From a bacterium (GTDB lineage Bacteria > Actinomycetota > Acidimicrobiia > Spongiisociales > JAENVV01), in NCBI GenBank assembly GCA_024639975.1, contig JAHEFX010000012.1, forward strand, positions 1 through 33,938: a DNA stretch of 33,938 nucleotides, in the 5' to 3' direction. Below the pieces are notes generated by a model, which saw only the letters and a program-made list of their open reading frames with translations, did no database searches and was not told the DNA's origin. This document shows, piece by piece, positions 11,013 through 20,505 of this stretch (position 1 is the stretch's first letter; each line of letters starts with the position of its first letter). Both the position numbers and the translations under genes were made by a program.

Positions 11013-14244
<3,232 letters not shown>

Positions 14245-15594: not shown

Positions 15595-15607
15595 GGTCCT
15601 CTCCTCT

Positions 15608-15641
15608 TGGTGACACCATGATGATGTCATAGTGATGTCAT
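15608..15641. promoter_or_regulatory. Putative RHH operator: tandem TGATGTCAT repeats plus TGGTGACACCA dyad
   Basis: Two exact 9-bp repeats TGATGTCAT at 15622-15630 and 15633-15641 have an 11-bp period, one helical turn. The core TGA-NN-TCA is a dyad. A third related element, TGGTGACACCA (15608-15618), is an 11-bp palindrome with a free central base and contains TGACACCA, which differs from TGACATCA (the reverse of the repeat) at one base. Ribbon-helix-helix proteins bind tandem short boxes on one face of DNA. Lying on the -10 and spacer of the cassette promoter, this suggests autorepression. Confidence 0.6.
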
Positions 15642-15649
15642 CTTGTCAA
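15621..15649 (-). promoter_or_regulatory. Promoter of the micro-ORF/RHH/DUF4097 operon
   Basis: On the minus strand a perfect TTGACA -35 (15649-15644) is followed, with a 17-bp spacer, by CATCAT (15626-15621; 4/6 match to TATAAT). Predicted transcription would start near 15614, giving a leader of about 20 nt with a ribosome site. The spacer and -10 are covered by the repeat pair described separately. Confidence 0.6.
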
Positions 15650-18643: not shown

Positions 18644-19828
18644 CTACGCAGTCGTCCCGGTGGGTGGATGCCTCGGAAGGGTCACCTCCACGGCTCCACC
18701 CGGGCCGGCAGCCAGCCGAATGGACCCGCCGTGGGCCACGGCCACGGAGCGGGCGATGGCCAGTCCGAGGCCGAAGCCTTCCTCGCGGCGCGATGGGTCC
18801 CCGGTCACGAACCGGTCGAACACCCGGTCGCCGAGGTCGGCGGGGAACCCCGGACCGTCGTCGGTGACGGTGAGAACGAGCAGCGGTCCCAGGCCGACGC
18901 CGAGGTGCACGGATCGATCCGCGTGGCCGATGGCGTTCTGGATGAGGTTCCGCAGGAGGCGACCGACGGCGTGGGGATCGAGCTCCCACCCTCCTTCCAC
19001 CTCGTCGGCCGTCAACGCCACCCCGGCCCCCTCGGCCAGCGGCCCCATGACCTCGAACGTCTCGTCGATGAGCTCGCCCAGGTCGATGGGTTCGATGTGG
19101 ACGTCGCCGGCCTCGAGAGCGGTGAGGCGGGTCAGGTCGGCCACAAGTCGCTCCATGGTCGAGACTTGGGTCCGAATCGCCCTCGAGTAGCTCGCCGGGT
19201 CGGAGGCAATCCCGTCCTCGATGGCCTCGGCGGCGGCCGAGATGGCCGTGAGTGGCGTGCGGAGGTCGTGACCGACCGCCACGAGGAACGCGCGCCGGGC
19301 CGCTTCGTCGGTGGCTCGCTGTTCTTCGGCGGTCTCCAGGGCGGCGACCATCCGGTCCACCGCCGCGGCCAGCTGGCCGATCTCATCGGGCCGGTCGACA
19401 CCGGTGCGGGCCTCGAGGTCTCCGTCGGCGACGTCCCCGGCGACCGCGAGCACCCGTCCGAGGTCGTCGACCGCCTGTTGGGCGACCAAGGCGGTGGCGA
19501 GGATCGCAAGTCCCGCTCCCAGTCCGATGGCCACGAACACCACCGGGAGCTGGGGGGTGTCGAGGACCATGCCGGCGGCGGCGAGGGTGACGACGATCGC
19601 CACCACGACCAGCGACCCGACCGCCGGGATCCCGAGCAACATCGGTAGTGAGGAGACCCGGTCGCCGAGGCGCTGGAGCAGCCATCGGAGACCGAATGCA
19701 ATGGCGGCTGCCACCACCACGACGACGGCGAGCCGGATCCAGTCCGAGGTCGTCGGATGCATGGTGAGGCCAAAGATGGCGATCGACCCGATGACGAGCG
19801 CGGCGGCGAACCAGGCGGCGCCCCTCAT
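18644..19828 (-). CDS. Sensor histidine kinase, HAMP-containing
   Basis: Membrane sensor kinase of 394 residues. Four hydrophobic segments are predicted near residues 6-23, 32-50, 64-86 and 94-116, with almost no extracytoplasmic domain, so it may sense within or at the membrane. A HAMP linker follows (about 112-165, 'VADGDLEARTGVDRPDEIGQ'). The H box is 'FLVAVGHDLRTPL' with His187; the N box is 'LLRNLIQNAIGHA' (Asn298); the G boxes are 'DDGPGFP' (323-329) and 'GFGLGLAIAR' (351-360). The ATG overlaps the response regulator stop by ATGA. The signal is unknown. The downstream MpaB-like gene is in the same operon. Confidence 0.93.
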   Translation of the reverse strand: MRGAAWFAAALVIGSIAIFGLTMHPTTSDWIRLAVVVVVAAAIAFGLRWLLQRLGDRVSSLPMLLGIPAVGSLVVVAIVVTLAAAGMVLDTPQLPVVFVAIGLGAGLAILATALVAQQAVDDLGRVLAVAGDVADGDLEARTGVDRPDEIGQLAAAVDRMVAALETAEEQRATDEAARRAFLVAVGHDLRTPLTAISAAAEAIEDGIASDPASYSRAIRTQVSTMERLVADLTRLTALEAGDVHIEPIDLGELIDETFEVMGPLAEGAGVALTADEVEGGWELDPHAVGRLLRNLIQNAIGHADRSVHLGVGLGPLLVLTVTDDGPGFPADLGDRVFDRFVTGDPSRREEGFGLGLAIARSVAVAHGGSIRLAAGPGGAVEVTLPRHPPTGTTA

Positions 19829-20505
19829 GGGTCGAACCGATAGCCTGCCCCGCGCACCGTGCGCAGGTGCGTCGGATGCGACGGGTCCTTCTCGACCTTC
19901 GTGCGCAGCCGACGCATGTGGACGGTGACCGTGCCGGGATCCTGCCAGTCGGCGCTCGAGCCCCAGACGGCCTCCAACAGCTGGCCGCGGCTGTAGACGC
20001 GCTTCGGCCTGGATGCGAGGTGGAGGAGCAGGTCGAACTCGAGGGCGGTGAGGTCGACGGTGCTCCCGTCGACGAGGACCTCTCGTGTCGACGGGGAGAT
20101 GACCATGTCGTCGAACTCGAGCGGCCGGTCAGGCGGATCCATCCGCTGCGCCCGCCGGAGGACGGTTCGTACCCGGGCAGCCAGCTCCCGGGCGCTGAAC
20201 GGCTTCACGACGTAGTCGTCGGCGCCGAGCTCCAGGCCGGCGACCCGATCGGCCTCGTCCTCACGGGCCGTGAGCATGATCACCGGGACCTCGGATCGGC
20301 GCCTGACCTCACGCAGCACCTCGAAGCCGTTGACGCCCGGGAGCATGACGTCGAGGACCACGAGGTCCGGCGAGGTCTCCCGGATCCGGTCCGCGGCCCC
20401 GGCGCCGGTGGCGAGGACCTCGCACTCGATCCCGTCCCGTTCGAGGTAGGACGCGACCACCTCGCCCACGAGGGGCTCGTCGTCGATGATCAGGACCCGG
20501 GTCAC
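19825..20505 (-). CDS. OmpR/PhoB-family response regulator
   Basis: Two-domain transcription factor of 226 residues, partner of the kinase that overlaps its 3' end. The receiver domain has the acidic pocket 'IIDDEP', the phospho-acceptor Asp52 in 'VVLDVMLPG', Thr79 in 'MLTARED' and Lys101 in 'VVKPFSARE'. The C-terminal winged helix shows 'VDLTALEFDLLLHLASRP', the recognition region 'GTVTVHMRRLRTKVE', and the wing 'LRTVRGAGYRFDP'. The start is GTG at 20505, with TAGATT ending 6 nt upstream, so it is likely leaderless. It is divergent to a gene for a secreted protein that it might control. Confidence 0.95.
   Translation of the reverse strand: MTRVLIIDDEPLVGEVVASYLERDGIECEVLATGAGAADRIRETSPDLVVLDVMLPGVNGFEVLREVRRRSEVPVIMLTAREDEADRVAGLELGADDYVVKPFSARELAARVRTVLRRAQRMDPPDRPLEFDDMVISPSTREVLVDGSTVDLTALEFDLLLHLASRPKRVYSRGQLLEAVWGSSADWQDPGTVTVHMRRLRTKVEKDPSHPTHLRTVRGAGYRFDP

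Follow-up and report, generated by a model that had tools for sequence, protein, structure and literature searches.

Three 8-bp dyads with an exact 11-bp period cover the promoter of an operon for a ribbon-helix-helix (RHH) protein in the window, the whole 33,938-nt stretch of DNA analyzed here. These boxes are very probably the operator of the RHH protein, whose dimers, aligned on one DNA face, would autorepress their own operon and repress exporter genes in trans. Sequence comparison supports the reading of this protein as a putative autorepressor, as proposed in the initial annotation. The same boxes are found at promoters of exporter pumps and tiny proteins in relatives and so open an apparently undescribed regulon; a repeat spotted by hand becomes a defined, testable regulon across the actinobacterial phylum, with one operator and one regulator family.

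Box array and promoter in the window

A sigma-70-like promoter is located on the minus strand, with the -35 element TTGACA (15644..15649), a 17-bp spacer, the -10 hexamer CATCAT (15621..15626) and an extended TG. It is the sole promoter-like site in 4 kb, where 0.1 were expected, and the same -35 element and spacing are present upstream of most orthologs. Box 1 (TGATGTCA, minus strand TGACATCA, 15633..15640) fills the spacer at a position conserved in orthologs. Box 2, with the same letters (15622..15629), overlaps the extended -10 and supplies most of it, and the hexamer consists mostly of its letters. Box 3 (TGACACCA, minus strand TGGTGTCA, 15611..15618) lies over the predicted transcript start at about 15614, and in-phase third boxes are found in many orthologs. 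The three boxes form one array with the consensus dyad TGRYRYCA, and the minus strand reads TTGACA-AGA-TGACATCA-CTA-TGACATCA-TCA-TGGTGTCA-CCAAGAGGAGAGGACC-ATG.

The initial annotation had described two identical 9-bp boxes on the -10 and spacer; these are indeed TGATGTCAT at 15622-15630 and 15633-15641, 11 bp apart from start to start, in the positions given above. The related palindrome that it placed downstream, TGGTGACACCA (15609-15619), is present too, and contains what had gone unstated, the third box TGGTGTCA (15618-15611, minus strand) in phase with the others.

Perfect TGATGTCA-N3-TGATGTCA pairs occur in the 2.35 Mb genome only at this promoter and in a second array on contig C81 (38330-38359). 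Allowing at most three mismatches adds two isolated places with three mismatches each, and a reversed-pattern control returned none in the same genome. The second array comprises three boxes with the 11-bp period, the last with one mismatch, and its register to TTGACG-N17-CATCAT is the same as at the window promoter. Directly downstream are an ABC ATPase gene and then two permease-like ORFs; a divergent TetR gene beside the array could share the promoter region. The suggested genome scan for two boxes 11 bp apart has thus yielded one further array, before an ABC exporter operon, and a search with the RHH protein for related loci in the genome contigs found no relatives.

The operon and its proteins

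Three ORFs on the minus strand follow the array, each sharing four nucleotides with the next. The first, P0001 (15487..15594), encodes an Arg-rich protein of 35 aa without a Pfam match, is preceded by a good Shine-Dalgarno sequence (AGGAGAGG, 15598..15605, minus strand), and overlaps the RHH start with its stop (ATGA). The second, P0002 (15041..15490), encodes the 149-aa RHH regulator. The third, P0003 (14274..15044), whose start overlaps the RHH stop (GTGA), encodes a 256-aa LiaG-like protein of the DUF4097/Toastrack family (PF13349, E 4e-21), which gives the operon the DUF4097 component of a Toastrack/Lia-like module; its match to the LiaG model has an E-value of 3e-18, yet lies far under the equivalog cut-off of that model. 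A 135-aa ORF (13837-14244, minus strand) with a single apparent membrane helix begins 29 bp past the DUF4097 gene and may be a fourth operon gene; no gene like it was found after DUF4097 in the relatives inspected. A histidine kinase and response regulator pair (18644-20505, minus strand) is also encoded near the cassette and is devoid of operator boxes.

The AlphaFold2 model of P0002 (mean pLDDT 81.8) has two helices and a beta hairpin in its N-terminal part, joined through a loose linker to a C-terminal RHH domain (residues 95-132), in which a strand region with Thr98 in the DNA-reading strand is followed by helices 103-116 and 120-132. Foldseek matched the RHH part over about 40 residues to AtaR, Arc, KacA, NikA and CopG in the PDB, with probabilities of 0.77-0.99, mostly above 0.9, and E-values of 0.3-3, none below 0.001; the N-terminal domain had no structural match there. 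The family profile matches AtaR, Arc and KacA by sequence as well (E 0.002-0.007), and Pfam HicB/RHH matches are found in most orthologs, while P0002 of the window is itself under the Pfam cut-off. With one strand and two helices, the modeled domain belongs to the RHH (MetJ/Arc) superfamily, and a dimeric state is predicted. The earlier statement that the operon encodes an RHH protein is therefore borne out by the helices of the model and by the fold and profile matches to Arc, AtaR and KacA.

Conservation at orthologous loci

P0002 is matched in 35 of the 59 close genomes (counting its own), and a wider profile search found the family in 57 of the 397 genomes sampled across the phylum. For 82 distinct orthologs we took the best pair of TGRYRYCA boxes within 320 nt upstream, with a cut-off of at least 15 of 16 positions. 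Absence of the boxes at orthologous cassettes had been set beforehand as the outcome that speaks against the autorepressor; a pair with the same 11-bp period was present at 78 of the 82, perfect in 62. Any other period from 8 to 15 bp gave a pair in at most 11 of the 82, and dinucleotide shuffles gave 0.05 orthologs with a pair on average. A good pair was absent upstream of four orthologs (L019, L094, L142 and L156). The boxes track the RHH gene and not its varying neighbours.

Among the 56 orthologs with a recognisable -35 element, 38 carry A2 and T6 in the hexamer at N17, and the commonest hexamer there is CATCAT (23/56). The array takes two main registers relative to the promoter, both of which cover the spacer and the -10 with boxes. 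In many lineages, such as the 6-11 Mb genomes that appear Streptomyces-like from protein resemblance and genome size, the end of the array falls on the RHH start codon, which points to transcripts that are probably leaderless there. Phased dyads over the own promoter and their conservation at orthologous loci, as expected of a tandem-operator RHH autorepressor, are both found.

Some RHH proteins activate transcription, and the sequence looks repeat-like, so one may ask whether the box-bound protein is an activator or the tandem repeat a chance or structural one without a regulator. Boxes on the -10 and start point fit classical activation poorly, however, and their letters, period and register are conserved over 78 of 82 orthologs, far above shuffles; we regard either reading as exceedingly improbable.

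Probable regulon in relatives

The pattern TGAYRTCA-N3-TGAYRTCA has sites in 39 of the same 59 genomes, and the reversed-pattern control had none in any of them. RHH gene and boxes occur together in 33 genomes and are both missing from 18, with the RHH gene alone in two and boxes alone in six (Fisher p 2.9e-8, uncorrected for relatedness). Two of the six boxes-only genomes were rejected as exceptions, G023 for an N-filled gap at the locus and G036 for a contig end inside the RHH gene.

Every perfect array in the 59 genomes is located at the RHH operon, an MFS exporter, an ABC exporter, a standalone 35-aa ORF or a copy of the RHH promoter. The extra arrays precede MFS exporters in 16 cases, ABC exporters in four (one of them in the window's own genome) and standalone small ORFs in two; one more is an RHH promoter duplicate at a contig end (L070). 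Most trans sites keep the promoter register TTGACA-N17-yATnnT, and single matches with one mismatch (e.g. in G034, G038 and G055) were counted as noise. In five Streptomyces-sized genomes the pattern is found at one locus each, the RHH promoter. The exporter of the Streptomyces-like lineage lies inside the operon, in the order RHH, DUF4097, ABC ATPase and permease, and one genome of f55 has the order RHH, DUF4097 and MFS; DUF4097-type proteins come after RHH in most phylum loci inspected. With an MFS or ABC exporter in trans, or an exporter in the RHH operon itself, an exporter would thus remain under this regulator although both its kind and its position vary. The operator had been expected to be searchable for a wider regulon, and the scan returned a coherent set, in which the exporters and the conserved small ORF had not been foreseen.

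The divergent TetR gene next to the C81 array invites the explanation that the boxes bind another regulator, of TetR or GntR type for instance, and that the RHH operon is merely one target. Across the whole phylum, however, RHH and DUF4097 are the sole genes that keep reappearing at the boxes, genomes without the RHH gene are almost always without boxes, and the box letters follow the RHH strand residue described below; this explanation is highly improbable.

Strand residue and box letters

Orthologs with TGA..TCA boxes possess T, S or A at the position of Thr98, and those with TGG..CCA boxes possess N. Judged by the majority of half-sites, the agreement is complete (77 of 77): N at residue 98 goes with G at box base 3, and T, S or A with base A. 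On the tree the match amounts to about two changes and one supported independent pair (two when all branches are used); it is therefore taken as a lead and not as a test, and carries no statistical claim. High-GC lineages could favour G-C boxes regardless of residue 98.

Two orthologs of f13 (L114 and L115) display a third operator flavour, with Ala at the strand position and TGATATCA boxes. Genome G469 encodes two RHH-DUF4097 paralogs (L161 and L162), each with its own boxes and with strand Asn in one and Thr in the other, a natural test of cross-talk.

The small ORF

Between the operator and the RHH gene, most members of the window's order and some other lineages have a small ORF of 25-58 aa, usually with an Arg-rich tail; L028, L030 and L034 have two of them in tandem. 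Codon comparisons showed amino-acid changes to be fewer than under a null of random substitution, at P < 0.05 in nine of ten pairs (the pairs are not independent), with 8 non-synonymous codons against 19.1 expected for the pair L027/L029. In two f4 genomes a 35-aa ORF (MLSIPIMGTTYHQTRRSELMRAFRP...; L079:3020-3240 and L074:2850-3060, minus) stands on its own, preceded by TTGACA, three perfect boxes and a ribosome site; a terminator-like hairpin with a T-run, read by eye, comes after it, and no further same-strand gene follows. The f5 genomes lack a small ORF before RHH and, as read by eye, have one between the same operator and the MFS gene (L085:3052-3205, L086:3079-3230 and L180:2830-2940, minus). 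Codon conservation together with these standalone and pre-MFS copies indicates that the small ORF is likely a translated micropeptide and a member of the regulon rather than a mere leader.

Its placement before RHH, before an MFS gene, or alone with its own operator and terminator-like hairpin suggests a bolder idea, a micropeptide-gated export switch. The Arg-rich micropeptide would itself be a working component of the circuit, for instance as an anti-repressor or sensor that targets RHH or Toastrack, or as an exporter subunit, with an RHH recognition code linking residue 98 to box base 3. We consider this combination rather unlikely; if true, it would make the regulon such a switch with such a code.

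A small basic ORF in first position, an ATGA overlap as in toxin-antitoxin operons and Pfam HicB matches in 15 of 16 phylum orthologs could also denote a HicB/TacA-type antitoxin, with the small ORF or DUF4097 as toxin and the boxes serving toxin-antitoxin autoregulation with conditional cooperativity; profile libraries likewise place the regulator family near HicB-type antitoxins. The conserved partner, however, is a Toastrack protein and not HicA or another listed toxin, and PADLOC found no defence family. Many lineages have no micropeptide between operator and RHH (distance 18-30 nt), exporters in trans are also under the operator, and a standalone micropeptide gene exists although that genome encodes RHH elsewhere. 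Membership in HicAB/TacAT was rejected, the neighbours being a 35-aa ORF without a Pfam match and DUF4097, with no HicA or GNAT toxin. An antitoxin role is accordingly judged very unlikely.

Proposed mechanism

In the autorepressor model, one RHH dimer would occupy each box and bind cooperatively with its neighbours, which would lie on the same face of the DNA at a distance of about one helical turn. The RHH protein is presumed to be the binder because of synteny, its co-occurrence with the boxes and the match between strand residue and box, and the position of the boxes suggests repression as the sign of control. With spacer, -10 and start point all taken up by boxes, bound dimers would shut out RNA polymerase and so autorepress the operon. 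The same protein would repress an exporter in trans, the ABC-2 operon on C81 here and MFS or ABC exporters in relatives; in other lineages the exporter is the last part of the RHH operon. Exporter targets, the Toastrack context (PMC11237479) and exporter neighbourhoods (PMC9866976) point to envelope or drug stress as the presumed signal. Speculatively, derepression in response to an envelope or antibiotic-type signal would bring up exporter, Toastrack and micropeptide at once, and the co-translated DUF4097 protein might act on the RHH N-terminal domain to relieve repression. One operator would hold exporters of two unrelated kinds, encoded in cis or in trans, together with a conserved micropeptide. 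This gives a handle on DUF4097 (Toastrack) function and, for RHH recognition, a naturally occurring specificity switch.

Comparison with known systems

The tandem-operator principle of RHH autorepressors (PMC4803016) and the RHH-Toastrack-ABC association (PMC11237479) are already known, whereas the regulon and its micropeptide appear undescribed. In the open literature, subscription papers and supplements aside, we found no account of the operator, the trans-exporter regulon, the specificity switch or the micropeptide, and nothing on the operator letters with RHH, HicB antitoxin with DUF4097, or HicB with DrrA. Toastrack operons with an ABC exporter and an RHH or GntR regulator have been noted in Actinobacteria (PMC11237479), with the same association of RHH regulator, Toastrack, ABC ATPase and permease as here; unlike here, its main text, as far as consulted, describes no operator, regulon, trans MFS/ABC targets or micropeptide.

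Antibiotic clusters such as that of lunaemycin carry self-resistance DrrAB-type exporters with DUF4097 neighbours (lun25-27), and lun1 (177 aa) precedes the DUF4097 gene lun2 (PMC9866976). The DUF4097 gene beside a DrrA/DrrB-type exporter is the common trait; the regulator is not described there. LltR of Listeria is a PadR autorepressor with a DUF4097 operon, and the related PadR regulator LftR answers antibiotic (PMC6624303). LltR resembles our system as an autoregulated repressor over a DUF4097 gene, repression being predicted here, but is a PadR winged helix with other partners.

Arc, CopG, MetJ and omega of pSM19035 share with our system phased short promoter dyads, the dimeric RHH fold and autoregulation (the last two predicted here); the omega repressor uses arrays of 7-bp heptads with one dimer each (PMC4803016). 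In contrast to all four, the system described here combines an 8-bp box with an 11-bp period, carries an additional N-terminal domain of helices and a beta hairpin that matches nothing in the PDB, and has a regulon of Toastrack and exporters.
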